From Planctomycetia bacterium (GTDB lineage Bacteria > Planctomycetota > Phycisphaerae > Phycisphaerales > SM1A02): a stretch of DNA of 64,000 bases. Below, piece by piece: positions 24,245 to 57,606 of this stretch (positions within the stretch are counted from its first letter, which is position 1; every line of letters starts with the position of its first letter). A program made the translations under genes and the position numbers. The stretch covers positions 1-64,000 of the forward strand of contig SYAC01000004.1 of assembly GCA_005787685.1 (NCBI GenBank), in the 5' to 3' direction. The notes below the pieces were generated by a model, which was given only the letters and a program-made list of their open reading frames with translations, was not told the DNA's origin and made no database searches.

Positions 24245-24472
24245 CGGCAATGTCTCATTTCGTTTGGTGCAAGTATCAAAAAGCACATTCTTCTTGATGA
24301 AGATGAAATCCTAGCAGGGCAGAAGCATGGGGCAAGTGTGGGGTTGGCACGCGTTCTGTGTGATGTGTGTCGCAAGCGCGCGGAAAGTATGAATTGGCGT
24401 GGCACAAATGTGGTTCGCGCAAGGTCAGGGTGGAGTTCGCCGCAGAAAAATTCTTTGACCAGGTTTCTCAAC
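24245..24472. other. Upstream region of the P-type ATPase gene, no gene seen
   Basis: Non-coding stretch between the ATPase start and the repeat tract at 24473. It has a pyrimidine-rich part near 24290 and otherwise mixed composition. I see no clear metal-regulator operator or promoter, though one would be expected here on the minus strand. Confidence 0.4.
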
Positions 24473-40967: not shown

Positions 40968-42068
40968 ATGAATCGTTTTTCTCCATTGTCCGCCATGCTG
41001 CTTGCTGCAATGTTCGCTTTCGCCGCGGACACGCCGTCGCCGTTGCAAATGGATCAGAAAGATCCCGCCAAGGCGCCCAAGATTTATGTGATACCCATGG
41101 GTCTTGACGGTCATGGGCAAATGGGCACGGATATTCGCCTGAGCGCGTTTGAAAAAGTGGTCAAAGATGTGAAGGAAAAAAAACCTGATTTGATTATCTT
41201 TGTCATGGAAAGTTCCGACGGCCGAACAGGCAAGGCCTATTTGGGCAATGACGATCGTTCTGAGCGCGGCCAAATGGATTTTGAGGATGGGCGCAAAATG
41301 GTCGATCTCTTAAAAAGCGATCTTGGTCCCATTCCGCAAGTCATGTGGATTAAGGATTCGGTTGGATTCAGCACTGCGCTCGCGCTTGCTTGGCCTGATC
41401 TTTATATGTCCAGCACCGCTCGTTTGTGGGGCATGGACCGAGTGCGAGAGCAGTACGAACGCACCCAAGATGACGAGGTACGCAAGAAATATATGGCCGC
41501 TTGGAACGGCATTGTGAATGGGTTCTTGCGTCGTGGCGGCTATCCATCGGAGTTGGGTTTGGCCATGATGCGCCCCGAACTCTTGCTCAGCGTTTCTTGG
41601 AACGGTCGCAATTTAAATTGGCGTCCCGACACCAAGGGCACATTCTTGGTTGACGGGGACACGAAAGCGGTTGCCAACTTTGACGCAAAGACCGCCGAGG
41701 ACCTGGGTCTTTGTGACGGCATTGCCGACAGCATTGAGGATCTCATGTTCTTGCTTGGCTACCGCGAGTGGGATGATTCACTTGGCAAGAACAATCAAGA
41801 TGGCGTGAAATTGGTTGGCGATTACATCACCGACTGGCGCAAGACCTACGCCAAGACTGTTGAATATTTCGTTGAATATGAGAAAAATTTCAAAGCCTCC
41901 AAATTTACCGCCGCCAAGGCGCTCCTTGAACGTATTCGGGATGCCATGAAAAAATATCCAGCGGTTGAATTTCGTTGGAGAATCCAAGGGCGCCCCGGAA
42001 TCGATGACATTGAACAAATGTTGCTGCAGGTCAAGGAGCAAGCCAAGGGCGCCAAAAGGAACAGTTGA
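40968..42068 (+). CDS. Secreted ClpP-fold protein, catalytic motif degenerate
   Basis: A 366-residue protein with a signal peptide (LSAMLLAAMFAFAA) and a central region laid out like the downstream paralogue at 42102: a strand-plus-helix (DLIIFVMESSDG, 74-85) where that protein has the glycine-rich INSGGG, then QVMWIKDSVGFSTALAL (124-140) where it has the serine motif. The glycine-rich loop is lost and the serine is displaced by one position (valine at the aligned site), so protease activity is unlikely. The C-terminal third is helical (KALLERIRDAMKKYP). Probably a periplasmic partner of its paralogue. Confidence 0.55.
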   Translation: MNRFSPLSAMLLAAMFAFAADTPSPLQMDQKDPAKAPKIYVIPMGLDGHGQMGTDIRLSAFEKVVKDVKEKKPDLIIFVMESSDGRTGKAYLGNDDRSERGQMDFEDGRKMVDLLKSDLGPIPQVMWIKDSVGFSTALALAWPDLYMSSTARLWGMDRVREQYERTQDDEVRKKYMAAWNGIVNGFLRRGGYPSELGLAMMRPELLLSVSWNGRNLNWRPDTKGTFLVDGDTKAVANFDAKTAEDLGLCDGIADSIEDLMFLLGYREWDDSLGKNNQDGVKLVGDYITDWRKTYAKTVEYFVEYEKNFKASKFTAAKALLERIRDAMKKYPAVEFRWRIQGRPGIDDIEQMLLQVKEQAKGAKRNS

Positions 42069-42101
42069 TCAAGTGGACTGTTTTACATAAGGAATCGTAA
42101 T

Positions 42102-43265
42102 TTGAAATATCGACATGCCATATTTGTTCCGGTTGCTCTTTGCGCAAGCGCCGCATTTGCTCAAACCAAACCGCCTTCGCCTGCAGCGGCGGATCCAAGC
42201 AAGACTCCCTTGGCGCCTAGCGGCAACTCCACTGGCGCAAAGCCGAGCGATGGTGAAAAAGACACGCGTCGCCAAATTTTTGTTCTTGAACTTGGCGGCA
42301 TGGTTGGTGTTGGTTTGCGCCACAATGAAATGGAGGTCATTGAAAAAGAGGCCGACAAATTTGGTCCTGGTCAAATCATCGTTATCCGCATCAATTCTGG
42401 AGGCGGTTTGGTGATCGAGGGCGACGAAATCGCGGAATCACTCATGCGCATACGCGACAAGCATCGCGTGGTGGCTTGGATTGAGGAGGCCATTTCAGGC
42501 GCGGCTTTCACCGCCATGCATTGCCGAGAAATTTATTTCCTGAAGGTTGGAACACTGGGTTCCATCACCATGCTTGATTCGGGCAGTGGCAAAAGCGCCG
42601 AGGGCAAGGCGCTTGAGGCTTGGATTGAAAGAGTGGGCGACGTTTCCGAGGGAGCAGGCCGCAATCGTCAAGTTGGAAAATGCATGGTGTATTCACCGCT
42701 CGTCGTGAGTTACACCAAAGACCCCAAGACCGGCAAGGTCACTTTCTTTGACAACGCCAACGGAGAAGTCATGTTGAGCAATGATCAAGAAAATCTCACC
42801 TTTAATGAAAATAATGCGCTGGATTGCGGATTTTCACAGGGCACTGCCGACAATCTGGAGGAAATCTGCAAGATCATGCAGTTGAAACCCAATTCGTATG
42901 TCGTGAATCCATATGGAAAGAAAGTGAGCGAGAGCTGGGACAAGACCGTCACTGATTCCAAGAAAGCTGCCATGCGGCTCAGGACTGAATGGGAGATCAA
43001 AGGCGCAAGCCAAGGCGAGGCGGCGCAAATTGCGGCTCGCTTGAAATTGCTTGATGAGATGCTGCGCATTTGGGAAAAATGCGAGCCTGTTGCCATGGGG
43101 TACGAAGGTGGAGGTCCGCTTATTCCGGATGAAGCCCAGCAATACGAAGACCTCTTCGCCGAATTTCAAAAAGTCAAAGTGAAAGCGCCCATCGTGAAGC
43201 TGGCCTTTGAGCGTTTGAAAAAAGATATGAAGCTGCAACTTGCGCAGTTGCGCAAGTCTCAATAA
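42102..43265 (+). CDS. Secreted ClpP/SppA/NfeD-like serine-protease-fold protein
   Basis: A 387-residue exported protein starting at TTG (AAGGA 8 bases upstream), with signal peptide AIFVPVALCASAAFA and a proline-rich linker. The core follows the SppA/NfeD1b pattern: QIIVIRINSGGGLVIEGDEIAESL (split here as residues 91-102 and 103-114), the candidate nucleophile S132 in EEAISGAAFTAM, and IYFLKVGTLGSI like the GSIG strand of SppA. A long helical C-terminal region follows. Membrane-associated ClpP-like proteases of this class in archaea work with stomatin/SPFH partners, and an SPFH gene cluster begins 1.9 kb downstream. Confidence 0.65.
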   Translation: MKYRHAIFVPVALCASAAFAQTKPPSPAAADPSKTPLAPSGNSTGAKPSDGEKDTRRQIFVLELGGMVGVGLRHNEMEVIEKEADKFGPGQIIVIRINSGGGLVIEGDEIAESLMRIRDKHRVVAWIEEAISGAAFTAMHCREIYFLKVGTLGSITMLDSGSGKSAEGKALEAWIERVGDVSEGAGRNRQVGKCMVYSPLVVSYTKDPKTGKVTFFDNANGEVMLSNDQENLTFNENNALDCGFSQGTADNLEEICKIMQLKPNSYVVNPYGKKVSESWDKTVTDSKKAAMRLRTEWEIKGASQGEAAQIAARLKLLDEMLRIWEKCEPVAMGYEGGGPLIPDEAQQYEDLFAEFQKVKVKAPIVKLAFERLKKDMKLQLAQLRKSQ

Positions 43266-43938: not shown

Positions 43939-44976
43939 TCAACCCACTTCGCGACGCTGAAACAGAAATGTGCCAAGCGTCAGCGCCATGACAATCAGCA
44001 CAAATCCGTAAGGTACTGCCGTGGCGATGTACTCAAAGCCAATGTTTTTCTTTTGTGTCAACGCATCGCTAAGCCAAAAGAGTTGGAAATTAGGAATCAC
44101 CGATTGCATCACTTTGTAAAAACCCCACTGTAAATGCATGGAATCGTGCCATGATTGATCCGCCGCTGGCAGCTTGCTCATGAGGTCTGAAAGCTGTTGC
44201 ATTTTGCGGGCAAACAACCAGTCGCTGAGCAAGCCCAGCATAAATGTTGCAAGAACTATGGCCAGCGTCAGCACTTGTCCAAGCCGCGTGCTCACGGCGA
44301 CTGCGATAGCGCCAAGAACAAGTTCCGCCACCATCAACATGCCAAGTGCCTTCCATAAATTTGGTTTGAATGTTGTCGCAAGATCCGCCGTGCCCCATTC
44401 GGGTTTAAAAATCAGACAGACGCAATACGCTATGCAGAGCAGAGGCAACCCCAGTGAAATGACAGTCGCTCCAAAATTCCATCCATATAAAAAATTGCAC
44501 CAAATGCCGCCGCCAAACATAAGAACTACGGCAGCCAATCCAAATGTGAGCACGGGTTGGTTGTAGGGCGTCCTCACGGTGGGCATGGTTCCATGCAACT
44601 CCGTCAGCATGAAAATGAACCCTAGCCACAGCGTCACCATCAGCAGCACGCTTGCCACGCCCAAGAATTTACCAACCACAAAAAGTGGACGAGGAACTGG
44701 TTTGCTGACCACAGTCAACACGGTTTTGTTTTCAATTTCGCGGCTGACCACTCCTGTGGCAAGAAACGCGGACAGGATGATGCCGCAAATAAAAATAGTG
44801 GACAAGCCAATATCAACAAACATTCGTTGATCGTCTTCCATGGTGAAACTACTGAATGGAACCGACAGAAATACAAAGATAAATCCAATCACCGCGGTCA
44901 CTAAAGTGACCGGTTGGCGAATGCACTCCAGCATTGTGTTTCGTGCAAGGGCAAGTAGTTTTTCAATCCAAGCCAT
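43939..44976 (-). CDS. ABC-2-type transporter permease
   Basis: A 345-residue membrane protein with about six spans (TLVTAVIGFIFVFLSVPF, STIFICGIILSAFLATGVVS, VASVLLMVTLWLGFIFML and later ones). The loop SREIENKTVLTVVSKPVPR is the hallmark of NosY-like ABC-2 permeases, where it contacts the ATPase. AAGG lies 8 bases before the ATG at 44976; an ATG six codons earlier has a badly spaced site. No ATPase gene is adjacent on this strand; the nearest candidate is at 49670 in the divergent run. Confidence 0.8.
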   Translation of the reverse strand: MAWIEKLLALARNTMLECIRQPVTLVTAVIGFIFVFLSVPFSSFTMEDDQRMFVDIGLSTIFICGIILSAFLATGVVSREIENKTVLTVVSKPVPRPLFVVGKFLGVASVLLMVTLWLGFIFMLTELHGTMPTVRTPYNQPVLTFGLAAVVLMFGGGIWCNFLYGWNFGATVISLGLPLLCIAYCVCLIFKPEWGTADLATTFKPNLWKALGMLMVAELVLGAIAVAVSTRLGQVLTLAIVLATFMLGLLSDWLFARKMQQLSDLMSKLPAADQSWHDSMHLQWGFYKVMQSVIPNFQLFWLSDALTQKKNIGFEYIATAVPYGFVLIVMALTLGTFLFQRREVG

Positions 44977-45114
44977 GGGGGTACCTTGGGGCAAGTCCTA
45001 GAAATTGTTCACCAAGAATAGCGAAAGGTCGAACCTTCTTCACCCCTGTGGGTAGAAAAAGATGCCCCGTACAGGCGTTCATGCGATACTATTTACAGAC
45101 CTCTGTTTGCCACC

Positions 45115-47274
45115 ATGAGAATCGATCAGTTTTCCTATCAACAAGCTAGCCGTGTTTCCGTTCTTGGCTTTGTCCTTCAGTTCGCCATGGCAATTGTCCT
45201 TTTGGTTTTTGGACGACTTGCCAGCGACACCACATTTATTGTGGCGTCCATCTCTGTTTTTTGCGGCATACCGGTCTGGGTGGCGCTTGCGGTGGTCTTT
45301 CATCAGCATCGACTTGAACGGCTTGAATCACTGGAACGGGAAGAGCTTGCACAATCGCGTGGTGAAAATATCTTTGAGCGTTCAGCGCTTGATCAAGAAG
45401 CCGCGGCGCGGCGCCTAGGCCAAATGCATCGATGGCTCATGCCCGCGGTGAGTTTAACCGTCGCCTTTTTATTGTTGGGACTTGGTCTTTGGAATTGGGC
45501 GCACTTGCGTGAAATGCAGGATCCGGGTCCGGACGGCATTTCATTCGCGGTTGGGTCTGCGTTGGGGTGGCAACTTGCGGTCTGTATTGGATTGGCTCTC
45601 ATTGCCTTCATTTTCGCGCGATTTGTGGCGGGTATGTCCAAGCAACCCGCGTGGCAAAACTTGCGCGGCGGCGCCGGCTTCATGGTTGGCAGCGCGCTCG
45701 TCACGCTTGCAACCGCAGTGGGAATTGTCTTTCATGTATTTCAACGACCCACCATCATGGAATGGATGGCTCTTGGAATAGCCGGGTTCCAAATAGCTTT
45801 GGCCATTGAAATCTTTTTAAATTGGACGCTGAATCTTTATCGACCGCGGCGAGCCAATGAAATTCCTCGTCCAGCATTTGACAGCCGAGTGCTTGGGCTG
45901 CTTGCGGCGCCCGATAATTTGGTGCGCGGCATCAACGAGGCGGTCAACTATCAATTTGGTTTTGACATTACCTCCAGTTGGGGCTACAAACTTTTGCTTC
46001 GCAGCAGCGGCGCATTGGTGGCTCTTGGACTTGCCGCGCTTTTCATTCTGAGTTGTGTTGTGGTGGTTGGCCCTGGCGAGCAAGCGGTTCGACTTCGTGG
46101 CGGATCAATCGCTGGGCGCGTTCATCAAGGTGAACTCATGTGGAAATTTCCTTGGCCATTTGAAACCGCGGAGGTGGTTGACATTGCACAAGTGCACGCG
46201 TTGCCATTGCAAAGCACAAGTTTGAAGGTGACGAAGGTGAATTTATGGGGCGATGCCGCTGAATCCGAAAGTACGCGCCCTGCGTATTTGGTGGCCGCGC
46301 CCAATCTTGCCGCCGAAGTGCAACGCGATTTGGGCGCTGGCAGTGAAGCCGCTGCGGTGCTGTCGTCGAGCGCGCCAATGCCTCAAGTTGGTCCAATTGC
46401 TGATTCGGCCACGGCCGGCATTAGCGATCGGTTTGCGCTTGTGGACGCGGACTTGGTCTTGATTTGGCGTATTCGTTCGGATGGTCTATTGTCTTGGTTG
46501 AATTTTGCTAGCGATCTCAAGCTCAGACGATCTGGTTTTGAAATGCGAGAGGTCATTTTGCGTGAATTGTGTCGCCGCGAAGTCTGCCAATATCTTTCGA
46601 CGCGTCCGCTTGATGAAGTCCTCAGTCCAAGCGGAGACGCCCTTGCGACCGCGCTTCGCGAACGCATTCAAAAGTCATTTGATGAAGTTGGAACAGGCGT
46701 GGAGGCCGTCAGCGTTCAGATTCCGGCACTTCGCCCGCCCGGAGAATCCGCGGCCTTGTATGAAGAACTCTCCCTAGATACTCAGAACGCGCGCAATTTG
46801 ATAGAGGAGGCGCAGCGCGTTGTGAACACCACCATGGCTACCTTGCTCGGTGACGCGCGCTTGGGGCCCAAAGCGGTGGACGCCATTGAAACATGGCGCG
46901 TGAACATGCGCGAAAAAGGTGAAGATGCGCCTGAAACGTTGGCCGCGCGGCTGATTGTTGAAAATATTTTGGTTTCAACACGCGGTCAAGTCGCAACCCA
47001 AATCAAGCGGGCGCGCGCACGGCGATGGGAATTGCATATGGACGCGCGCCGAACCGCCAGCGCGGTTTTGGGGCAGTCGGGCGCTTATCACATTGCTCCA
47101 GAGTTGTTTATGCAGCGCAAACTCATGGAGGCGATCGGGCAAAGTCTTTCAAATGTCCGCCAAAAATATGTTCTAGGAATAGACCCCAACCGCATTCGAG
47201 TAGATATTCAAATGCAACAGCCAGAAGTTGGCTTCAACTTAGCTGACTATGTCGAGAAGAAATCAGATCAGTAA
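45115..47274 (+). CDS. SPFH-domain protein with polytopic N-terminus (HflK-like)
   Basis: A 719-residue protein. The first 310 residues contain about seven hydrophobic spans (such as VLQFAMAIVLLVFG, WLMPAVSLTVAFLLLGLGLW, MVGSALVTLATAVGIVFHVF, ALVALGLAALFILSCVVVV). The SPFH domain starts at VVGPGEQAVRLRGG (about 320), with the HflK-like ELMWKFPWPFETAEVVDI. Later come long helices with EEAQRVVNTTMATLLGDARL. Ordinary HflK has one span, so the N-terminal bundle is unusual. A TACTAT ends 22 bases before the ATG. It heads a run of eight genes. Confidence 0.75.
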   Translation: MRIDQFSYQQASRVSVLGFVLQFAMAIVLLVFGRLASDTTFIVASISVFCGIPVWVALAVVFHQHRLERLESLEREELAQSRGENIFERSALDQEAAARRLGQMHRWLMPAVSLTVAFLLLGLGLWNWAHLREMQDPGPDGISFAVGSALGWQLAVCIGLALIAFIFARFVAGMSKQPAWQNLRGGAGFMVGSALVTLATAVGIVFHVFQRPTIMEWMALGIAGFQIALAIEIFLNWTLNLYRPRRANEIPRPAFDSRVLGLLAAPDNLVRGINEAVNYQFGFDITSSWGYKLLLRSSGALVALGLAALFILSCVVVVGPGEQAVRLRGGSIAGRVHQGELMWKFPWPFETAEVVDIAQVHALPLQSTSLKVTKVNLWGDAAESESTRPAYLVAAPNLAAEVQRDLGAGSEAAAVLSSSAPMPQVGPIADSATAGISDRFALVDADLVLIWRIRSDGLLSWLNFASDLKLRRSGFEMREVILRELCRREVCQYLSTRPLDEVLSPSGDALATALRERIQKSFDEVGTGVEAVSVQIPALRPPGESAALYEELSLDTQNARNLIEEAQRVVNTTMATLLGDARLGPKAVDAIETWRVNMREKGEDAPETLAARLIVENILVSTRGQVATQIKRARARRWELHMDARRTASAVLGQSGAYHIAPELFMQRKLMEAIGQSLSNVRQKYVLGIDPNRIRVDIQMQQPEVGFNLADYVEKKSDQ

Positions 47275-47291
47275 TTCAGGACACAAATATC

Positions 47292-48239
47292 ATGTCAAAA
47301 ACACTTCCAATCGCCGCGGCCGCATTCATTCTTCTGGTGTTGACATTGTTCAACACCACCTACACGGTGAATTATCATGAGGTCGCAGTAGCCACGCGCT
47401 TTGGAAAGCCTGCAGGAATTGTCCGCGACGCTGGGCTGCACTTCAAGGCGCCATTTTTCATTGATCAAGTTGCCAAACTTGACACGCGGCTGCAACTGAC
47501 TGAAAGCAACATGGAAACTGTGCTGACAAAAGATGGCCAGCAAGTTGTGGTGAAGGCCTTTCTTTTGTGGAGAGTCGACGCAAAAGGTGATGCACCACTT
47601 GCGTTCTATACGGGGTACGGAAATTTAGACACGGCCAGCAAAGAACTGGAAACACGGCTCAACGCAAGCATTCGCGGATCGGTTGGACAATTTTCCTTCA
47701 CCGACTTGATTGGTTCAAACAGCAGGTTTCCCGCAGCGGAAGCGGCATTATTGGCGGATATCAAACGAAATCCAATGGTGGGCGTGGATCCAGTCACGGT
47801 TGGATTAAGCCAAGTTGTGCTGCCGCCAAAGACCACAATCGCGGTCATTAAACGAATGAGCGCGGTTCAAGAAACGCTGGCCAATCTAGAGGAGAGCCGA
47901 GGACAGGCGGAGGCTGACGCGATTAAAAGCATGGCCGCAAGTCAAGCTGACACCATTCGTAATTTCGCTGAGCAGTGGGCGGCGGAACTTGAGGCCGTTG
48001 GAAACACCGAGGCCACGCGCTACTACGAGCAGATGAAAAAAGAGGCTGACTTGGCAATTTTTCTAGCTTGGCTTGACACGCTGCGGGCCAGTCTCGCAGG
48101 CAGCACGACATTCATTACGGATATGAATAAAGCGCCATTTCACATGATGGATTTGGACGCGCCAGTTGATGCGAAAGGTATCCCTCAGCCCACACAAAAA
48201 TCCTCGTGGGGACAATCAAACACATCGGACAATAAATAA
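47292..48239 (+). CDS. SPFH-domain protein, HflC-like
   Basis: A 315-residue membrane-anchored protein with one N-terminal span (AAFILLVLTLFNTTYTVNYHEVAV, in part) and the HflC-type SPFH core: RFGKPAGIVRDAGLHFKAPF, VLTKDGQQVVVKAFLLWRV, then the helical EESRGQAEADAIKSMAASQADTI. HflC normally pairs with HflK in a cage around the FtsH protease. Here the partners are the SPFH genes on either side (17-base gap before, none after), and no ftsH is present. Confidence 0.82.
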   Translation: MSKTLPIAAAAFILLVLTLFNTTYTVNYHEVAVATRFGKPAGIVRDAGLHFKAPFFIDQVAKLDTRLQLTESNMETVLTKDGQQVVVKAFLLWRVDAKGDAPLAFYTGYGNLDTASKELETRLNASIRGSVGQFSFTDLIGSNSRFPAAEAALLADIKRNPMVGVDPVTVGLSQVVLPPKTTIAVIKRMSAVQETLANLEESRGQAEADAIKSMAASQADTIRNFAEQWAAELEAVGNTEATRYYEQMKKEADLAIFLAWLDTLRASLAGSTTFITDMNKAPFHMMDLDAPVDAKGIPQPTQKSSWGQSNTSDNK

Positions 48240-49673
48240 ATGGCGGACGCAGATCAAGATTTTCCATCGCAAGATTCGCAAGAATCCGAATCACCACGAC
48301 GCGGAGCACGCGCGCAATTTGAGGTTTCCGCTCCGGTTGCCGCAGAGGCCGCCATGCGGCAGGCCATGGACCCAGCCAATCAAAGTCTTGGGGAAGCGTT
48401 GCGTCTTTCGTACCGACTGCTTCAAGTTGCCATTGTTGGTCTGATTATCACATTTTTATTCAGTGGATTTCAAACCGTCAAAGAAGGAATGAGTGGAGTT
48501 CGCTCTATCTTTGGCAAGATTTCTGGCGAGCCTGGACAAGAGGCTTTGATCCCTGGATTGAATCCATTTTGGCCGTATCCAATTGGGGACATCACTGTCT
48601 TCGAAGTGAAGCGCACCGTGGAATTGCGTTTTGAATTTTGGCCGCGCATGGTGGCTAAGAACATCACCATTGAACAAATGATCGATGGCGCGGATCCGAA
48701 CGCTCCTATCAATCCAGGTGTAGATGGATCCGTTCTAACAGGGGATGGAGATTTCGCGCATGTGCAATTGACCGCTGAATATGTCATTGGAGATCCAGTT
48801 CGATTTTTAGAAGCAGTCGATATTGAGAAAGGGGACGCCATTGTTCGCATCGCTCTTTCACGTGGAGTGACCGCGGCAATAGCCACACTGCCTTTAAGTG
48901 AGTTGGTAGATCAGCGCGAGCAACCCGCTTTGCTCGTGCAAGCGCAAGCGCAGCGCATCTTGGACGATGTCTCGAGCGGAATTCAATTACAAAAAGTCAC
49001 CATGCCCGAGCGCAGCGCGCCTTTTTCTGTTCGCAATGTTGTGCGTCGTGCGCAAACAGGCAAGGAGGACGCGAAGACCATTGTGGACCGCGCCCGACAA
49101 GATTCCACCGCCCAACTTTTAGCAGCGGCTGGTCCGAATTATGAACAAATATTACAAATGATCGATGCCTATGAAGCGGCTCTTTCCGCGGGCAATTTGG
49201 TCCAATCCGATCAGTTGCTGCGCGGCATTGGTGAACGGTTGGAAATGAAGGATATTGGTGGATTTGCAAGCTCTATTGTGAACAAAGCCAAGAGTTACCA
49301 AAGTGCGATCGCGGCAAATTTAAGCAAGGATGTTCGTCGTATTGAAGGTCTTCAAGAAACGTGGAATCAGAACCCCAGACAACTTGCGCGGCAACTTTGG
49401 TTAGACGCCTTGCGTAGCGTGTTGACTCAGTCTGAAGTTGAAGTTTTTTCCATGCCGCCAGGAGTTGGTCAAAGCCAAATATCCATCGCATCCAGTCCCG
49501 AAGTCATGCAGTTGCGGCGCAACGCCGACATGACTCGTCGCAAACAGGCGGCCATCATCCTAGAGGCGCTGCGGCCAAGTTGGCAGATTGGCGTGAAGCA
49601 GATGACGCTTGATAAAGCGGGGCGGCGATTGGATGAGAAGGCCACACAGGGCTTTGGTCGGGAGAATAAGTGA
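48240..49673 (+). CDS. SPFH-domain protein, HflK-like
   Basis: A 477-residue protein with a disordered charged N-terminus, one span (VAIVGLIITFLFSGF), and an HflK-type SPFH domain (KEGMSGVRSIFGKI, PGQEALIPGLNPFWPYPIGD, HVQLTAEYVIGDPVRFLEAVD). A long helical part (about 270-400) and RRKQAAIILEALRP close it. The start codon abuts the stop of the HflC-like gene, and its own stop overlaps the GTG of the ABC ATPase gene, indicating tight co-expression. Confidence 0.8.
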   Translation: MADADQDFPSQDSQESESPRRGARAQFEVSAPVAAEAAMRQAMDPANQSLGEALRLSYRLLQVAIVGLIITFLFSGFQTVKEGMSGVRSIFGKISGEPGQEALIPGLNPFWPYPIGDITVFEVKRTVELRFEFWPRMVAKNITIEQMIDGADPNAPINPGVDGSVLTGDGDFAHVQLTAEYVIGDPVRFLEAVDIEKGDAIVRIALSRGVTAAIATLPLSELVDQREQPALLVQAQAQRILDDVSSGIQLQKVTMPERSAPFSVRNVVRRAQTGKEDAKTIVDRARQDSTAQLLAAAGPNYEQILQMIDAYEAALSAGNLVQSDQLLRGIGERLEMKDIGGFASSIVNKAKSYQSAIAANLSKDVRRIEGLQETWNQNPRQLARQLWLDALRSVLTQSEVEVFSMPPGVGQSQISIASSPEVMQLRRNADMTRRKQAAIILEALRPSWQIGVKQMTLDKAGRRLDEKATQGFGRENK

Positions 49674-50866
49674 CGACTCGCAATTCAAACAACACTACCG
49701 ATCTTGCGGTGCAGGCCATTGGTTTGACCAAGGTGTTCACTGACTTTTGGATGCGCGCAAAAGCGGTTGCCGTGGATGGAATTGATTTCGAAATCCGTCA
49801 ACGCGAAATTTTTGGATTACTTGGACCAAACGGAAGCGGCAAGAGCACCACCATTAAGATGATCCTGGGACTTTTGCGCCCAACCCAAGGGCGTTTAACC
49901 GTGTTGGGCCACGCGCCAGACGACGTACAAGTCAAATCAAGGATTGGCTACTTGCCCGAGGAAAGTTATTTGTATCGCTTTCTCAATCCAATGGAAACGC
50001 TGGATTATTACGGAAAATTGTTTGGTTTGGATCGACGCGTTCGCCGCCGTCGCTGTGAGGAATTGTTGGAAATGGTGGGGTTGAATCAAGTTGGTCGGCG
50101 CCAAGTTGGTGAGTTTTCCAAAGGCATGGCGCGGCGTCTTGGTTTGGCTCAGGCCCTTGTGAATGATCCCGATTTTTTGATTTTAGACGAGCCAACCAGC
50201 GGACTTGATCCAGTTGGAACCCGCCAAGTGAAGGACCTTCTTCTGGAGCTTGGGCGCCGCGGGAAAACAATTCTTCTTTCCAGCCACCTTTTGTCGGATG
50301 TGGAGGATGTGTGTGATCGAATGGTTGTGCTGTATGGCGGAAAAATAAGAGCGAGTGGAAGTGGCGACGAGTTGCTTGAGGATTCCGATCACACCGTGAT
50401 TCAAACACAGCGCCTTCTACCAGAAACAATTTCAAAGATAGAAAAAGTGTTGAACGATGCGCAGGGGCTTGGCATTCAAAGCGCGCACGCGCCGCGTCAA
50501 AAACTTGAGGATTTGTTCATGAAAATTGTCGAGCAGGCCAAGGCGGAGCAAGTTTCTAACAGTGGCGCTTTACATGGCGGAAAGACGGCCGCATTTTTGG
50601 CGCAGGACCCAGCCGAGGGCGCGGAGTTGGTGGAAAGCCTGGCCAGCGTGCCAGTCACCAATCCCGCAAAGGTTGTTCCTTCTATGCAATCCAAGGAAAA
50701 GTCTGCCGCCACCAATGTACTGAACGAACTTCTGCAAGAAGTGCCAATTCCTGCGCCAAAGACCCTCAATGTGAAGCCACCACAAGCCGCCACCAATGTT
50801 GATCGCGGAGTCCTTGATGGACTTCTTGGAAATGATCCAAAATCTGGTGGGAGCAAATCTTCGTGA
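49670..50866 (+). CDS. ABC transporter ATP-binding protein with long C-terminal tail
   Basis: A 398-residue ATPase starting at GTG (GTGA overlap; GGAG upstream). Walker A GPNGSGKSTTIKMILGLL, C-loop EFSKGMARRLGLAQAL, Walker B FLILDEPTSGLDP and switch LLSSHLLSDV identify an ABC-2 exporter ATPase. The conserved part ends near residue 240. The remaining 150 residues include a helical LEDLFMKIVEQAKAEQ and a low-complexity, proline- and serine-rich end that could dock to partners such as the SPFH proteins. It is coupled to the permease gene by another GTGA overlap. Confidence 0.88.
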   Translation: MTTRNSNNTTDLAVQAIGLTKVFTDFWMRAKAVAVDGIDFEIRQREIFGLLGPNGSGKSTTIKMILGLLRPTQGRLTVLGHAPDDVQVKSRIGYLPEESYLYRFLNPMETLDYYGKLFGLDRRVRRRRCEELLEMVGLNQVGRRQVGEFSKGMARRLGLAQALVNDPDFLILDEPTSGLDPVGTRQVKDLLLELGRRGKTILLSSHLLSDVEDVCDRMVVLYGGKIRASGSGDELLEDSDHTVIQTQRLLPETISKIEKVLNDAQGLGIQSAHAPRQKLEDLFMKIVEQAKAEQVSNSGALHGGKTAAFLAQDPAEGAELVESLASVPVTNPAKVVPSMQSKEKSAATNVLNELLQEVPIPAPKTLNVKPPQAATNVDRGVLDGLLGNDPKSGGSKSS

Positions 50867-52902
50867 AACAGTCGTTTCGGGAGCGTTGGTGGCGTTGGAA
50901 CAATCATTTCCAACAGACTCGTGTCAAAGTCATCTCCACGGTCATTTCAACGCTTGTGATTCTTGGTTGTATGGCGCCATTCTTTGTCGCCAGCGCAAGG
51001 TTGCAATCGCAACGCGATGCCATTGAATTGGTTGTGCAGCAAGCCAATCTCGCTGATCGTGAGCCAATTAGCGTGGCCCTGTTGGAACAAGGCGAAGTGA
51101 CGACTGCATTAGGAAAATTTCAAAGCAGTCGATTACGTTCAATGGGAAATGATTTATTTGATCGGCAAGGCAAGGTTTTGGATTCCGCGTTGATTTCAGA
51201 TGTGTTGCTTGCCCCCTATTTTCCAACTTGGTCGCCTATTTTCCTTGTGGAGCGCTCCACATCGCCGCTGGCGGTCACCGCTATTCTTTTGGCAACAACA
51301 TTTTTGGCGTTGTGGATGAATTTTTTCATTCCGTATCTATGCATCATGATCGCTTGTGTGGGAATTGTGGTGCCAGCGGTGAGTCGGGGATATTTTTCCT
51401 TGGCCTTTGTCACCACTGGAATTACCGTGCTTTTGCTGTCATTTAGCTTACTTATTCAACTTTTAATCGCGCTGCTGAACGCGCGTGTTGGTTGGTGCGC
51501 GGTTGCTCAAACCTTGGTGCGTGAATCCATTCGCCTGCGCATCAGTCTCGCCTTTATCTCGGTGGTGCTTATCGCCCTTCCTTTGCTGCCAGTTTTTATA
51601 GATGGCTCCACCCCATTGCGTTACCAAATCCAAACTTTCATGTCGCGCTCATTGGATATTTCATATGTCTGCGCAGCGTGCATGACCTTGACCCTGGGCT
51701 GCGCGACTGTCGCTTTTGAAATTCGAGATCGACAAATATGGCAATTGATGACCAAGCCCCTGGACCGCTTTCAATATCTGATTGGCAAGTGGGTGGGGTT
51801 GGTCGGATTGAACGCAGTTTTGTTTCTGGTATGCGGATTGGGAATTTTTATTTTTGTTCAATGGATGCGAACGCGTCCAGCCGTGGATGATTTCGACCGA
51901 CTCGCCATTCGCGACGAGGTTCTTGTGGCCCGCGATGTTTCACGGCCGCAATATCTGCCACTGAGTCGCGACAAATTAGAGGCGGAGGTTGACTCGGTCA
52001 TTGCCTCCGATGCTGTTTTGAAAGCCGACTTGGACAGCGGTCGACGCAGATTTGAGGATGTGCGACGCGAGATCGCGCTGCAGCGCCAGGCCGAGTTTCA
52101 ATCCGATCAGCGCCGGGTTGGCGCGGGCGAAAGCAAAACCTTTGTATTTCCTGACTTATCCATGGCAAAAAAACTGGGTGGAACCATGTCTCTCCGCTAC
52201 TTCTTACATGCCGGAGGCAGCGATTCGCATACATCGTGTCCGATCATTTTTAAATTTGGCGATGGAAGCTGGGTGGATCGCATGTTTGTTCCAGCGCAGG
52301 GTCATGTTCTCATGGTGCCCACAAGTTTTATCGACGCCGACGGCAACTTGAAAGTTGAAGTGATGAATTTGAAATACGATGTCAAGAGCCAAACTTTTCT
52401 GCCAGGTCCCTTCTCATTCAATTGGGAACAAGACAGCCTTGAAATTCTTTATCGAGTGGGGGGCTTCGAAGGGAATTACCTGCGTGGCATGATGGTGAAT
52501 TTAGTCAAGTTATCTTTCTTGGCCATGCTGGCTGTCTGCTCCGCCACTACGCTTAGTTTTCCCATTGCCTGCCTACTTTCATTCTCACTTTTCCTTGGCG
52601 GCAGTTTGGCCCCGTTCTTGCAACAAAGCCTGAAGTATTGGACTTCGGGCGCGGATGATGGCTCCATTGAAAGCATGATTCAATTTTTCGTGCGCGCCAT
52701 TGCGGTTGTTGTGGAATATGCGTTGAGACCTTTTGGGCAAACCAGCGCCAATGATCTTTTGGTGAAAGGTCGCAATGTCAGTTGGGATCGTTTAACGCTG
52801 GCAATATTCGTCATTGGCATTGCGTGGACGGGCATCACGCTCATCATTGGCTGGATCGCCTTCCGACGCAAGGAATTAGCTGTGTACAGCGGTCAAGGAT
52901 AA
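50863..52902 (+). CDS. Large ABC-2-type permease with an extracytoplasmic domain
   Basis: A 679-residue membrane protein starting at GTG. One span near the N-terminus (VISTLVILGCMAPFFVASA) is followed by a group at about 145-310 (LLATTFLALWMNFFIPYLCI, ISLAFISVVLIALPLLPVFI, VLFLVCGLGIFIFVQW). The ABC-2 coupling loop EIRDRQIWQLMTKPLDR is visible. A soluble region of about 180 residues (330-535) precedes the last three or four spans. It likely forms the membrane channel with the preceding ATPase, and the soluble domain may bind cargo or an SPFH cage. Confidence 0.75.
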   Translation: MKQSFRERWWRWNNHFQQTRVKVISTVISTLVILGCMAPFFVASARLQSQRDAIELVVQQANLADREPISVALLEQGEVTTALGKFQSSRLRSMGNDLFDRQGKVLDSALISDVLLAPYFPTWSPIFLVERSTSPLAVTAILLATTFLALWMNFFIPYLCIMIACVGIVVPAVSRGYFSLAFVTTGITVLLLSFSLLIQLLIALLNARVGWCAVAQTLVRESIRLRISLAFISVVLIALPLLPVFIDGSTPLRYQIQTFMSRSLDISYVCAACMTLTLGCATVAFEIRDRQIWQLMTKPLDRFQYLIGKWVGLVGLNAVLFLVCGLGIFIFVQWMRTRPAVDDFDRLAIRDEVLVARDVSRPQYLPLSRDKLEAEVDSVIASDAVLKADLDSGRRRFEDVRREIALQRQAEFQSDQRRVGAGESKTFVFPDLSMAKKLGGTMSLRYFLHAGGSDSHTSCPIIFKFGDGSWVDRMFVPAQGHVLMVPTSFIDADGNLKVEVMNLKYDVKSQTFLPGPFSFNWEQDSLEILYRVGGFEGNYLRGMMVNLVKLSFLAMLAVCSATTLSFPIACLLSFSLFLGGSLAPFLQQSLKYWTSGADDGSIESMIQFFVRAIAVVVEYALRPFGQTSANDLLVKGRNVSWDRLTLAIFVIGIAWTGITLIIGWIAFRRKELAVYSGQG

Positions 52903-52905
52903 GCC

Positions 52906-54861
52906 ATGGTTGATCGACTTATTCAACTGGCATGTGTACTTCTATTCGCGGCTGGTGCCGCTGTCAGTGGCGTCTTTGTTCCAAATCTTTTGCAGCAGGC
53001 CAACAAAGATGGGCTGCGCTATACGGCCGATCCAGTTGAAGGCGCGCCTCCGATCATTGTGATTGGCACGGCGATTGGCGCGCTTCGTGGCATTCTTGCG
53101 GATTATTTATGGATTAAATTGCAGGCGCAAAAAGACCAAGGACTTTTTTACGAAGCCATGGCCGACGCTGACTTGATCACAAAATTGCAGCCGCGCTTCG
53201 CAGAGGTTTGGGGTTTCCATGGACATAACATGGCGTACAACATTTCCGTGTTGACCAACACCCCTGAAGAACGCTGGGCTTGGGTGAACGCGGGAGTTGA
53301 TTTAGTCCGTAGCAAGGGACTGCGTTACAACCCCAACGATCTTGGGTTGAACAAAGAACTCGCTTTTTGGTTCGCCCATAAAATTGATGGAGTCTCAGAC
53401 GACGCCCACTTGCATTACAAACGCGAGTTCGCAAAGGAATGGCTTTATGTTCTTGGTTCACCACCCTATGACCAAGTGGAGCGAGAGAAGTGGCTGCGCG
53501 CCATCGCCAATACACCAGACACCATAGAGGAATTGGAGCAAAAGAACCCAGAGGTGAAGGTGTTAGTTAGTGAATTGACCAAGGAATTTGCGCCATTTGA
53601 AAAGCAATTTCGATTTGAATTAAACAAGGATTTTTTGATCAATTTGGGCAAATGGATGGCGGTCAAGACATCACCGTACGCCAAGATTCTCAATCTGGAA
53701 AAAAAATTCAAGACAAGCGATCCAATATTTGTAGCCTTTGATCGCGTGTTGGCCAGGCCGGACCAGCAAGCCGCGCTCAACGCACTGTTGTCATTCTTGC
53801 GCAAGCGCGTCTTGATAGACGATTACAACATGAATCCCTCCAAGATGGCGGATTACACGCGCGACATTGGTCCGCTGGATTGGCGTCATCCACAGGCGCA
53901 CGCCTTTTACTGGAGCAAACTTGGAGCAGAAGAAGGCCAGGCCCGTTATGGCGATCCTGATAGCGCGTACAAGGTCATGAACAATGATCGCATGACTATT
54001 CAAGCTATGCAGGCTTTGAATCATTCTGGCCTGATGGCCATTGATCCGTTTTCAAATGACAACCCAACACGTTTGCAAGACAACCGATGGATTAAATCGA
54101 TCGAAAAATATTTTTTAAAGCTTTATGAAAAGCATTACGGCGCGCGCGGCGCTGGTGGAGACACATTTTGTGATTTCCATGAGAACTTCATGTCCCAGGC
54201 CATTCGCCAGCTATTTAGAGTGGGTGATTACGCGGGTGCCCAGGAAATCCTTGATCATTTAGACAAACTCTATGGCCGCGGCGGCTTGATTCCCAATGAT
54301 CAATACGAGAAGTCGCTTGAGGATTTTGTGCGCGATTCAACCTATGGAGAATATGACATGGTCCCAGACGTGGCGCGCACGGATGTCTACGCGGTCTTGC
54401 AGCGCGGTTTTCGCGAAGGACTTCTCATGGGTCGTAAAAAAATTCTGGATGAAAGTTTGAAGTTTGCCCAAGACTTGACGGATTATTTCCAAGGCAATCG
54501 CTATACGGATTTTGTAAACAAGTTTGGCGAAAAGCGTATGGCGGATCTTGTGGGCGATATTCGTCGCAGCGTGGAGGATGTCTTAATCGCTTTGCTGCGC
54601 GACAATAATCAGCCTTTGTTTGATCGACTGGCTATTTACAACCGCGCTTCCGAAGAACAGCGACGCATGGTGTACGACGCGGTCAAGGGTCAAATTGAAA
54701 CCGAACTGAAAGCCAGTCCGTTAAGCGAAGCAATGGCACTTGCCGCTGCACTGCCGGAACCGCCTGAGATGGAGGCTTATAGAACCCTGCAAGCCGAGGC
54801 CGCACGCTTGCGAAAAGAAAGTCTTGAAGATCAAAATAGATCGGAAACACAGCGTAAATGA
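52906..54861 (+). CDS. Membrane-anchored helical orphan, 651 residues
   Basis: Begins with a hydrophobic anchor (ACVLLFAAGAAVSGVFV) followed by a second mildly hydrophobic stretch (IIVIGTAIGALRGILADYLW). The rest is largely helical, with patterns reminiscent of TPR-like repeats (FAEVWGFHGHNMAYNISVL, WVNAGVDLVRSKGLRYNP, AGAQEILDHLDKLYG). I recognise no enzyme motif. It starts 3 bases after the ABC permease gene and overlaps the next gene by 4, so it is probably an accessory factor of the SPFH-ABC machine. The C-terminus is highly charged (RLRKESLEDQNRSETQRK). Confidence 0.6.
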   Translation: MVDRLIQLACVLLFAAGAAVSGVFVPNLLQQANKDGLRYTADPVEGAPPIIVIGTAIGALRGILADYLWIKLQAQKDQGLFYEAMADADLITKLQPRFAEVWGFHGHNMAYNISVLTNTPEERWAWVNAGVDLVRSKGLRYNPNDLGLNKELAFWFAHKIDGVSDDAHLHYKREFAKEWLYVLGSPPYDQVEREKWLRAIANTPDTIEELEQKNPEVKVLVSELTKEFAPFEKQFRFELNKDFLINLGKWMAVKTSPYAKILNLEKKFKTSDPIFVAFDRVLARPDQQAALNALLSFLRKRVLIDDYNMNPSKMADYTRDIGPLDWRHPQAHAFYWSKLGAEEGQARYGDPDSAYKVMNNDRMTIQAMQALNHSGLMAIDPFSNDNPTRLQDNRWIKSIEKYFLKLYEKHYGARGAGGDTFCDFHENFMSQAIRQLFRVGDYAGAQEILDHLDKLYGRGGLIPNDQYEKSLEDFVRDSTYGEYDMVPDVARTDVYAVLQRGFREGLLMGRKKILDESLKFAQDLTDYFQGNRYTDFVNKFGEKRMADLVGDIRRSVEDVLIALLRDNNQPLFDRLAIYNRASEEQRRMVYDAVKGQIETELKASPLSEAMALAAALPEPPEMEAYRTLQAEAARLRKESLEDQNRSETQRK

Positions 54862-55526
54862 CTCAAATGACTTGCCCGCCCGCCGTCCTGGCGATTGGTC
54901 GAAATTACCCTGAACATGCCCAAGAAATGGGTGGCGCGGTTGATTCCAATCCAATCGTGTTTATGAAGAACCCGGCGTGCGTGATTGGCGACGGACAAGC
55001 AATTATTATTCCCGCCATCTGTGAGCGACCAGGACCACAAGTGGATTGGGAGGGCGAGTTGGCGATTGAGATTGGAACAACATGTAAAAACGTTCAGGAG
55101 GCCGACGCGCTAAGCGTGGTGCGCGCCTATCGCGCCGCTAATGATGTGAGCGCGCGGTGGTGGCAGAAGCAGGGTTCTGGCGGACAATTTTGCCGCGGTA
55201 AAAGTTTCGATACATTCTGTCCGCTTTCGCAACCTACCCGGGCCGAGCGAGTTCCAAATCCCCAATGCTTGCGCATTATCACGCGCGTGAATGGCCAAGT
55301 GATGCAAGACGCCTCCACCGCGGACATGTACCACTCGGTCCCAAAAATAATTTCGGTGCTCAGCGATGGAACCACCTTGCTCGCTGGAACGATCATTCTC
55401 ACTGGGTCCCCCCCGGGAGTTGGTGCGGCTAGAAATCCACCTATTTTCCTGAAGAATGGCGATATTGTGGAGGTCGAGATTCCAGGCGTGGGTCGGGTAC
55501 GCAATCCAGTGCAAAGTGAAAGATGA
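54858..55526 (+). CDS. Fumarylacetoacetate hydrolase family protein
   Basis: A 222-residue FAH-fold enzyme. NYPEHAQEMG, NPIVFMKNPACVIGDG, and the metal-binding acids in DWEGELAIEIG and RAYRAANDVSARWWQ match the FAHD1-like group (oxaloacetate decarboxylase or acylpyruvase activity in characterised members); later GKSFDTFCPL and ILTGSPPGVGAA are conserved. It overlaps the preceding and following genes by 4 bases each, but its link to the exporter genes is only positional. Confidence 0.88.
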   Translation: MTQMTCPPAVLAIGRNYPEHAQEMGGAVDSNPIVFMKNPACVIGDGQAIIIPAICERPGPQVDWEGELAIEIGTTCKNVQEADALSVVRAYRAANDVSARWWQKQGSGGQFCRGKSFDTFCPLSQPTRAERVPNPQCLRIITRVNGQVMQDASTADMYHSVPKIISVLSDGTTLLAGTIILTGSPPGVGAARNPPIFLKNGDIVEVEIPGVGRVRNPVQSER

Positions 55527-55921
55527 GCGAGCCCGCGGCGAAAGTTTCGCTCGCCGCGCGTTGCCTCATGGGCTTGGTTCGTGGCTATCAAATTATTCTT
55601 TCACCTGTGCTGGGCGGTCGATGCCGCTTTGAGCCATCGTGTTCCTGCTACTCGATAGAGGCGTTTCAAACGCACGGCGCTTGGCGTGGTTTGTGGTTGA
55701 CATTACGCCGAGTTATTCGTTGCCAGCCTTGGGGCGGTTCTGGATTTGATCCAGTTCCAATTTCTTGCAGCGGCTGTGTAGTGTGCCCAGAGCACCCATC
55801 AAAGCGTCTTGATAGTCCTTCAAATTTTTCGGTTCATGCGGGCGAACCACAATCACCACATCCAGACATGTCGGCAACTGTTTCTGTAAAAGACGAAAGC
55901 TCTCGCGTAACAAGCGCTTGA
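55523..55921 (+). CDS. yidD: Membrane protein insertion efficiency factor YidD, extended
   Basis: A 132-residue protein. Residues 11-79 are a complete YidD domain: LVRGYQIILSPVLGG, the cysteine motif CRFEPSCSCYSIEAFQTHGA, and RRVIRCQPWGGSGFDPVP, where the family normally ends. The remaining 53 residues are not conserved and are read through the antisense strand of rnpA. YidD assists insertion of membrane proteins. In most genomes it lies just downstream of rnpA on the same strand; here the two are convergent and overlap. Confidence 0.88.
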   Translation: MSEPAAKVSLAARCLMGLVRGYQIILSPVLGGRCRFEPSCSCYSIEAFQTHGAWRGLWLTLRRVIRCQPWGGSGFDPVPISCSGCVVCPEHPSKRLDSPSNFSVHAGEPQSPHPDMSATVSVKDESSRVTSA

Positions 55922-56126
55922 TTCGGTTGCGGCGAACGGCCGTTCCCACCTTGCGTGGCAAGCTCACTCCAATGCGGGTGTGCGTGAAAGAATTGACCAA
56001 GGCGTAGATGGTGAGAAATTCCAAATTGACACGCTGCTTGCCGGCGTACACGCGGCGAAAGTCGCGGTCCAAGCGCAAGCGCATTTTGGTTGGAAATCGT
56101 AGGGAATGCGGCATGTTACGAGGCAT
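55713..56126 (-). CDS. rnpA: Ribonuclease P protein component
   Basis: A 137-residue basic protein, slightly longer than usual. It has the family start SLRFPTKMRLRLDRDFRRVYAG, the signature RRNRIKRLLRESFRL and the strand LDVVIVVRP. It binds RNase P RNA to mature tRNA 5' ends. The 3' third overlaps yidD on the other strand by 209 bp, and the start overlaps the end of the ClC gene by 11 bp. rpmH, its usual upstream neighbour, is missing here. Confidence 0.92.
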   Translation of the reverse strand: MPRNMPHSLRFPTKMRLRLDRDFRRVYAGKQRVNLEFLTIYALVNSFTHTRIGVSLPRKVGTAVRRNRIKRLLRESFRLLQKQLPTCLDVVIVVRPHEPKNLKDYQDALMGALGTLHSRCKKLELDQIQNRPKAGNE

Positions 56127-57606
56127 CCAATTCGCGTTGGTAGCGATTCATAAGCGAAGCCCGCGACAGCAGACCCAAGACTTTCGCGGGTTGGTCACGC
56201 GACAGAACTGTGAGCCGCTGCACATCATGGCGGCTGAATCGGTCAAGGACCACATCAAGCGTTTCATTTATATAGATTACTGGTAAGTCATCGCGAGTCA
56301 CCTCGCCCACGCTGAGCAACCCAATCACTTGTCGATTCAAAAGCGCTTGACGCAAATCATTGGATGTCACCATGCCCCGATACACGCCATTCCTGTGAAG
56401 CACCACAAAGTCGTCAACGCCATGCTCAGCGCTGATGCCCAATACTTTTGACAACTCATCATCCGCCGACACGGTAATTGCGGTGTCCAGCGGAATATTG
56501 GAAACATACAAGCGACGCAGTACCGACAAGTCGCTCATGCCACCAAGGCGAATGCCAAGCGACGCTAATTCCGCTGTGTAAATACTGTCGCGGTTGAGCA
56601 AGCGGCTGGCCAACGCTGCAATGACCGCCGTCAACATCAATGGCAACATCATGTTGTAACTGCGCGTGGCCGCGTATCCCACTCCAAGGAAAGGGGGATA
56701 GCCCGAATCTGATTTGTTCAAACTTATCCATGCCGCGCCCATGCCGCCAAGAAGAATTGCCCCTATGAGTGGCCGCAGCAATGGATGGACCGGAATCCGC
56801 AAGAATTGTTTTTCACTTATCGGCAGACAGCGCGTGAATGCCACCGCAATGAGCGCGCTTAAAAATCCAAATACCACATAAAAGAATATTTGCCCAATGG
56901 CAAATGATTCCGATGTATTGGCGAAGAATTCCTCACCTCCGCCAAACAATGACTCGGAACTTTCCAACCACATTTGCGCTGTCGCCGCGCTCACCACACT
57001 GGCAATCACAATGGGCGTGAAGGTGCGCAGCCAGAAGTCGCGCAAGATCACCTCCATGTTGAAAAAAATAGCGGCGAGCGGCGCATTGAATACCGCTGCT
57101 AGGCCCGCAGCGGAACCACAGCCCAGCAATGTGGCCGCACGAGCGCTATCGCCTTTGAGCCAGCGTGAAATATTGCTGCCCACGGTTGAGCCAATGGTCA
57201 CGATCGGCCCCTCTGGTCCCGCGCTTCCGCCCAAGCCAATGGGGCATGTGCTAGCCAGCCAATGTCGAATGCCAATTCGCATCGGCAAATTTGATTGTTC
57301 ACGATTCACCGCTAACATGACCCGCGTGACTCCGTGACCGCGAAAGTTGGTGGTAAAAAGCCAAAATACAAATACGGTCAGCAACGCTCCCACGCAAGGC
57401 GCCAGCAATACAAGAACTTGGCTTAGACCCGCAAACTTCTGACCTACAAATTCCGGCAAATTTTCCAGCCAGCGAACCGGAAGTATAAATCCAATCGCGG
57501 CGGTTCCCATGACAACGCCAAGACCCCCAGCCACCAGAATCAACCACCATTCCCGGTCTAGCCCAAGGCGAATGCGCAGTCGATTGATTACAGTTTGAGC
57601 AACCAT
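56116..57606 (-). CDS. ClC-family chloride channel/antiporter with CBS domains
   Basis: A 496-residue membrane protein. ClC motifs are visible: FRGHGVTRV in place of GSGIP, GLGGSAGPEGPIV carrying the gating glutamate, and AAGLAAVFNAPLAAIFFNMEV. The glutamate is compatible with either channel or proton-exchange function. After about ten spans, a C-terminal pair of CBS domains (VLRRLYVSNIPLDTAITV onward; LPVIYINETLDVVLDRFSRHDVQRL) probably senses adenine nucleotides. Its end overlaps the rnpA start, so the two share a transcript. Confidence 0.87.
   Translation of the reverse strand: MVAQTVINRLRIRLGLDREWWLILVAGGLGVVMGTAAIGFILPVRWLENLPEFVGQKFAGLSQVLVLLAPCVGALLTVFVFWLFTTNFRGHGVTRVMLAVNREQSNLPMRIGIRHWLASTCPIGLGGSAGPEGPIVTIGSTVGSNISRWLKGDSARAATLLGCGSAAGLAAVFNAPLAAIFFNMEVILRDFWLRTFTPIVIASVVSAATAQMWLESSESLFGGGEEFFANTSESFAIGQIFFYVVFGFLSALIAVAFTRCLPISEKQFLRIPVHPLLRPLIGAILLGGMGAAWISLNKSDSGYPPFLGVGYAATRSYNMMLPLMLTAVIAALASRLLNRDSIYTAELASLGIRLGGMSDLSVLRRLYVSNIPLDTAITVSADDELSKVLGISAEHGVDDFVVLHRNGVYRGMVTSNDLRQALLNRQVIGLLSVGEVTRDDLPVIYINETLDVVLDRFSRHDVQRLTVLSRDQPAKVLGLLSRASLMNRYQRELDAS

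Follow-up and report, generated by a model that had tools for sequence, protein, structure and literature searches.

A conserved planctomycete operon combines an SPFH triad, commonly partnered by a P1B-type ATPase gene, with an ATP-binding cassette module

Introduction

Known SPFH proteins assemble on membranes as rings, domes or cages (PMC12624060, PMC12048511, PMC11260169), and what the SPFH assemblies of bacteria enclose besides the protease FtsH is an open question. Here we describe an SPFH gene set in DNA from Planctomycetia bacterium (Phycisphaerales; SM1A02), namely positions 1–64,000 of the forward strand of contig SYAC01000004.1 in assembly GCA_005787685.1; this whole stretch of 64,000 nucleotides is called the window. 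In it, three SPFH genes (S1, S2 and S3, together the triad) are followed by genes for an ATP-binding cassette (ABC) ATPase, a permease (PERM) and a protein for which a Pfam scan gave no family match (the orphan).

The initial annotation of the window treated three SPFH genes in one unit with a transporter as a combination not known to be a described system. The hmtA cluster of Pseudomonas aeruginosa shows otherwise. As set out in the available portions of two papers, PA2434–PA2439 hold three HflK/HflC-type genes together with HmtA, an atypical Zn/Cu P-type ATPase, PA2439 being annotated as HflK, PA2438 as HflC, PA2437 as HflC family and PA2435 as HmtA (PMC4542158, PMC11761036). The portions available of further papers connect this cluster with zinc: a znuA mutant has five of its genes raised 5.6- to 14.4-fold (PMC4542158), the PA2439 promoter is shifted by Zur (PMC8531726) and zinc depletion raises protein levels, significantly for PA2438 and PA2439 according to the authors (PMC11761036). 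Another study describes PaFlo5-7 as three SPFH genes in one operon found in few species, and the terms 'P-type' and 'HmtA' do not occur in its available text (PMC13086221); PaFlo5-7 are presumably PA2437–PA2439. In a paper on SPFH evolution (PMC2636767), the available main text contains none of the terms P-type, ATPase and ABC transporter. Our literature search of open-licence papers found no description of the SPFH-P1B-ABC combination reported here; neither the ABC extension nor the partnership of SPFH and P1B genes across the clade was found described in that literature.

Results

The six-gene operon

Six co-directional genes lie at 45115–54861 on the + strand, with 17, 0, -4, -4 and 3 bases between successive genes, as the initial annotation had read them (gaps of 0–17 bases or 4-base overlaps). 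They are listed here with two further genes of importance below.

45115–47274, +: S1, HflK-side SPFH protein, 719 amino acids (Band_7, 7.5e-11; hydropathy; tree group 99/94)
47292–48239, +: S2, HflC-side SPFH protein, 315 amino acids (Band_7, 6e-23; on the HflC side of the tree)
48240–49673, +: S3, HflK-side SPFH protein, 477 amino acids (Band_7, 3.2e-10; tree group 100/97)
49670–50866, +: ABC ATPase, 398 amino acids (ABC_tran, 9.7e-31)
50863–52902, +: PERM, ABC-2 permease with an added beta-sandwich, 679 amino acids (weak Pfam match; predicted model; weak NosY fold match)
52906–54861, +: orphan, N-terminal membrane helix and helical solenoid, 651 amino acids (predicted model; conservation across the order)
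43939–44994, -: P2, second ABC-2-like permease, divergent and just upstream of S1 (ABC2_membrane_2, 4.2e-6, 0.5 bits under the cut-off)
22217–24286, -: PT, P1B-type ATPase with CPG in place of CPC (TIGR01525; PT profile; tree)

The Band_7 (SPFH) matches of S1–S3 all exceed the curated Pfam cut-off, and hydropathy gives S1 about seven hydrophobic segments up to its SPFH domain. As in SPFH triad-P1B clusters, one HflC-side and two HflK-side genes are adjacent. PERM matches ABC2_membrane_2 at 1e-4, under the Pfam cut-off. The host genome (2.37 Mb in 65 contigs, 91% complete) has the window on contig C23, and its SPFH matches number four, three in the six-gene run and one on contig C59.

Conservation of the gene set

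We searched 246 genomes of the phylum with S1 (E≤1e-5) and 67 matched, the window's own genome included. Around the S1 matches in all 66 other genomes we took 69 stretches of up to 20 kb each and read their gene order from profile labels, with score thresholds deciding what counted. The triad was in order in 56 of the 69 stretches and all six genes were in order in 32, many of the remainder being short contigs. Six stretches (L061, L062, L065, L069, L166 and L176) had S1 and no ordered triad under the score thresholds used; in two of these, L062 and L065, from two genomes of family f38, S1 stands without a labelled S2 or S3 in the stretch.

A separate scan with an alignment of the orphan confirmed 572 stretches, of which the best 80 were kept. 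The full ordered set was present in 55 of these best 80 loci, and the other 25 start at a contig end no more than 0.7 kb from an operon gene. Of the 55 complete loci, 51 also have P2 beside the six genes. Record titles of the best 80 orphan relatives were mostly Planctomycetota, Planctomycetaceae, Phycisphaerae or Phycisphaerales. Two contigs titled as Limnohabitans and Bacteroidia metagenome-assembled genomes (L098, L151) carry planctomycete operon genes and are probably mis-binned.

The six-gene order recurs in relatives whose S1 is 19–33% identical, and this goes beyond what chance or recent descent would give. The initial annotation had made its functional link depend on synteny in other genomes, and synteny unique to the window's genome is ruled out by this recurrence. 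The orphan was found in 121 of 121 genomes and 80 of 80 genera of one planctomycete order, so that the combined set looks near-universal there. Together, these data indicate that the six-gene set is real and conserved.

A P1B-type ATPase is the commonest partner of the triad

The commonest partner of the triad is the gene of a P1B-type (heavy-metal) ATPase. It lies in the same stretch as 45 of the 56 intact triads and directly after S3 in 29 of them; 16 of the 56 have it and no ABC ATPase labelled in the stretch, in some of these because the contig ends. Many relatives have the gene of a P-type ATPase of about 650 amino acids, placed either after S3 and before the ABC ATPase or on the far side of P2. 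Three such proteins scored 528–565 bits with the NCBIfam model for heavy-metal translocating ATPases (TIGR01525, cut-off 346), and PT scored 520.7 bits. The initial annotation missed this ATPase and centred on the less constant partner. Its proposal of an SPFH assembly working with an ABC exporter instead of FtsH agrees with the synteny and with the near absence of ftsH from relatives' stretches, but the ABC genes are not the triad's most regular companions.

Three P-type ATPases were found in the genome of the window, and the PT profile gave PT 634 bits as against 447 and 301 for the others. Because another P1B gene, on contig C42, reaches 447 bits, profile score alone is insufficient as proof of kinship, and a tree was built. 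It holds 61 rows, 10 of them references; partial frames from L055, L073, L181 and L184 were left out. The SPFH-linked ATPases, planctomycete and four proteobacterial, form one group of 49 rows (support 100/100) apart from the 10 references, and two rows included by score and kept (L164 and L186) fall outside it. The group splits into 14 and 35 rows, both branches supported at 100/98. The 14-row subgroup comes from loci without the ABC trio of ATPase, permease and orphan, with the four proteobacterial rows among them, and the 35-row subgroup holds every P1B row found beside the trio. Read by eye, CPC is present in the metal-site helix of 13 of the 14 rows versus 18 of the 35. The loss in about half of the ABC-linked subgroup, the window included, is a sign that the ATPase there may have acquired another substrate, or that its metal role may be altered or lost.

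In the window's family, 36 of 41 genomes, the window's own included, have a strong P1B match (>780 bits) and three have a partial one; other P1B genes reach 507 bits in the same comparison. The distance between the P1B gene and the orphan is 29–32 kb in five members (G000, G275, G303, G306 and G336) and 2.8 Mb along the single contig of G267, and in other members the two lie on different contigs. PT has RibD, EF-G, RNase HII-like, DeoC, glycerol-3-phosphate dehydrogenase, UvrA and UvrB genes as neighbours, and a scan of these for a functional link saw none. PT is likely an unlinked member of the triad's partner family.

These results bear on the form in which the initial annotation put its idea, namely that the SPFH assembly encloses the ABC exporter alone, which would make the P1B gene a chance or past neighbour. 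Consistent with this, the 55 complete orphan-scan loci have the ABC genes directly after S3, and a P1B gene was found in none of the fetched stretches at the threshold used (in L153 a P-type match is cut off at the stretch edge). Set against it, the P1B gene is retained across the window's family as described above, and it accompanies most intact triads elsewhere. We consider this explanation improbable.

The triad-P1B cluster also occurs on proteobacterial plasmids

Other phyla were sampled through plasmid records, of which seven matched S1 by tblastn. Four were examined (Paraburkholderia, Burkholderia, Rhizobium and Klebsiella), and by profiles all four have S1, S2, S3 and the P1B gene side by side; annotation agrees in three, the Rhizobium record being unannotated. 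Profiles of PERM, P2 and the orphan had no match in any of the four. Near the Paraburkholderia cluster are genes for a zinc ABC importer and for PCu(A)C. These four clusters supplied the sequences for comparison, and the hmtA cluster is likened to the window by its published annotation.

SPFH phylogeny and the place of FtsH

We built an SPFH tree of 85 chosen rows from the window, 18 other planctomycete triads, the four plasmid triads, five planctomycete pairs and three proteobacterial HflK/HflC pairs. S1 (99/94) and S3 (100/97) each form one group across the two phyla, and these groups are separate from canonical HflK (99/96) and HflC (100/99). S2 falls on the HflC side. An S2/S3-like pair alone was labelled in six stretches of the phylum (L164, L170, L185 and L189–L191); the five of these pairs placed in the tree cluster with canonical HflK and HflC, which indicates that the phylum has canonical pairs too. 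With the best NCBIfam HflK/HflC models, S1–S3 scored 45.7, 95.3 and 63.1 bits, where the cut-offs are 159.4, 134.4 and 159.4. The three genes, named HflK-like, HflC-like and HflK-like in the initial annotation, have the Band_7 domain and lie on the matching sides of the tree; their scores stay under the HflK/HflC cut-offs, S1 and S3 stand apart from the canonical proteins and S2 was not recovered as one group.

No FtsH gene lies in the operon, as the initial annotation had noted; the sole M41/FtsH match of the genome is on contig C56. Among 149 stretches from relatives searched, one (L075) has an ftsH gene, and an FtsH-linked gene set was rejected as a claim about gene order. The initial annotation had named SPFH genes beside ftsH, with the ABC genes elsewhere in relatives, as an arrangement that would speak against it; in the relatives the set is instead kept together.

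The triad might nevertheless act on FtsH in trans, as HflK/HflC do, with the neighbouring genes encoding clients of that control. The HflK-side and HflC-side SPFH domains fit this, as do the FtsH gene elsewhere in the genome and the lack of another HflK/HflC pair among its four SPFH genes. The low HflK/HflC scores, the separate S1 and S3 groups, the near absence of ftsH from the stretches and the presence of canonical pairs in the phylum all argue the other way, and we regard action on FtsH as rather unlikely.

Two adjacent genes occupy 40968–43265 of the window, and the second has an NfeD1b_N/SppA-like protease-type domain. Two genes separate its end from S1, which starts 1.8 kb farther downstream, so the adjacency of a stomatin-NfeD pair is not seen. 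A gene of this kind was labelled in 6 of the best 80 orphan-scan loci and in 0 of 40 S1 stretches, many of which do not extend far enough upstream.

The ABC module

An alignment of the orphan (A1) matched 163 of the 246 genomes at E≤1e-10, in many of them over no more than roughly the first 165 residues. Of 20 stretches taken around A1 matches, 14 had ABC ATPase, permease and orphan in order on one strand; one of the others had permease and orphan without a labelled ATPase, and five had the orphan alone. No SPFH match was found in these 20 stretches. Since the ABC trio is also found without SPFH genes, the window joins two separable modules.

The predicted model of the orphan has an N-terminal helix followed by a helical solenoid (pLDDT, the predicted local distance difference test, 86; pTM, the predicted template modelling score, 0.83). 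A fold search against PDB gave no match that reached E 0.001, the matches being weak solenoid ones. The single N-terminal anchor suggests that the orphan is probably anchored in the inner membrane with its solenoid facing the periplasm. The PERM model (pLDDT 87, pTM 0.81) has an extra beta-sandwich. Its likeness to NosY (7o0y_E; TM-score 0.67 on target) has an E-value of 0.19, above 0.001, and is a lead only; matches to carbohydrate-module-like folds at E 0.07 or worse are likewise leads, and unrelated proteins outrank both them and NosY. For an ABC-2 transporter of NosY type, the ATPase is clear (ABC_tran), and PERM shows its NosY likeness without a PDB match at E≤0.001.

In one planctomycete, a stand-alone ABC-permease-orphan trio (L207, 4935–11094) is preceded by genes that resemble folP, a diadenylate cyclase gene and a YbbR-type gene. 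In the window the same-strand run continues past the orphan with a FAH-family gene (54858–55526) and yidD (55523–55921), each with a 4-base overlap. Two genes on the - strand follow, to 57606, presumably RnpA and a CLC channel. These four genes (54858–57606) stay near the operon in many scan loci, on varying strands.

Discussion

The explanation that we favour, with a probability of roughly 0.55, is a composite of two membrane modules in which the SPFH assembly gathers or stabilises a P1B ATPase and an ABC exporter in one membrane patch. One module is the triad with its usual partner, an HmtA-like P1B metal ATPase; the other is an ABC-2 transporter (ATPase, NosY-like permease and often P2) with an anchored, probably periplasmic, helical solenoid. 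The window's lineage has both in one operon, with the P1B gene 21 kb away. In favour of the explanation are the synteny, the retention of the P1B gene in the window's family, the P1B and SPFH trees and, in P. aeruginosa, the raised expression of the cluster in the znuA mutant and the Zur shift of the PA2439 promoter. S1–S3 would most likely co-assemble into a membrane-anchored ring or dome, like other SPFH complexes, and the shared patch might couple metal handling to the export or maturation of an envelope component. The data show the gene order and how widely it is kept, the make-up from two modules, the phylogeny and the domains; we infer the physical assembly, metal as the substrate here, the direction of transport, the ABC cargo and the role of the triad in organising its transporters. 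HmtA is reported to act in import, in work of 2009 by Lewinson as related in PMC10393844 and PMC8531726.

Several observations weigh against this explanation. The window's P1B gene is not adjacent to the triad; it has CPG, and 17 of the 35 rows of its subgroup are without CPC; and it sits in that subgroup on a long branch (1.53) from a weakly supported fork (84/74). No clear P1B match of this kind was seen in three genomes of the comparison, G362 (72% complete) and G367 (80%) of the window's family and G185 (98%), and in the four genomes tested of family f2 the P1B gene is distant or on a different contig. The best tree nests canonical HflC inside S2 by weak branches. In the available portions of published work on P. 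aeruginosa, hmtA mRNA is unresponsive to zinc addition (PMC8531726), a review has Zur binding every uptake promoter except that of hmtA (PMC10393844), in conflict with the reported Zur shift, and deletion of PaFlo5-7 gives slight phenotypes only (PMC13086221).

Some of these observations would fit an operon that reflects common regulation only, for instance in a metal- or envelope-stress regulon, with SPFH proteins that do general membrane work and bind no transporters. The two modules separate in evolution, the P1B gene has moved out of the operon both in f2 and in the family of the window, and removal of PaFlo5-7 has little effect (PMC13086221, in its available portion). On the other hand, two phyla share the S1-S2-S3 order together with a P1B gene, and in the P1B tree the sequences that go with triads form one group. 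We think common regulation alone unlikely, if still worth keeping in mind.

A distinct SPFH set with a recurring transporter partner in two phyla supplies named proteins for the question of what SPFH assemblies enclose. It suggests that transporters, and not the FtsH protease, may be what scaffolds of this type organise, and it makes the testable prediction that SPFH triads scaffold transporters with a link to metal. A tentative extension, on which we would not rely, is a third SPFH machine besides HflK/C-FtsH and stomatin-NfeD, a three-paralogue compartment that houses transporters and brings metal and envelope passage into one walled patch. In many bacteria such a compartment might hold a metal ATPase like HmtA, to which planctomycetes would add an ABC exporter of NosY-like kind and its periplasmic solenoid.

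Comparison with known systems

The HflK/HflC-FtsH system likewise has HflK-side and HflC-side SPFH genes side by side. The window differs in its three members, in the multi-segment S1, in having no FtsH gene nearby and in the separate groups of S1 and S3. For the ABC module the comparison is with NosDFY, where the PERM model resembles NosY, not significantly by E-value, and the window has an added beta-sandwich in PERM and a helical solenoid as its neighbour. In the PacL1-CtpC metal efflux platforms of mycobacteria, a P1B ATPase is collected into foci in the membrane by a scaffold protein; the available portion of that paper describes PacL1 as small with one transmembrane domain and the foci as flotillin-independent, without an SPFH triad (PMC9374683). 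By published annotation, in the portions available, the hmtA cluster shares with the window three HflK/HflC-type genes and a P-type ATPase gene; those portions mention no ABC ATPase, ABC permease or orphan, and the window's P1B gene, unlike its counterpart there, stands away from the triad; it is also without CPC.

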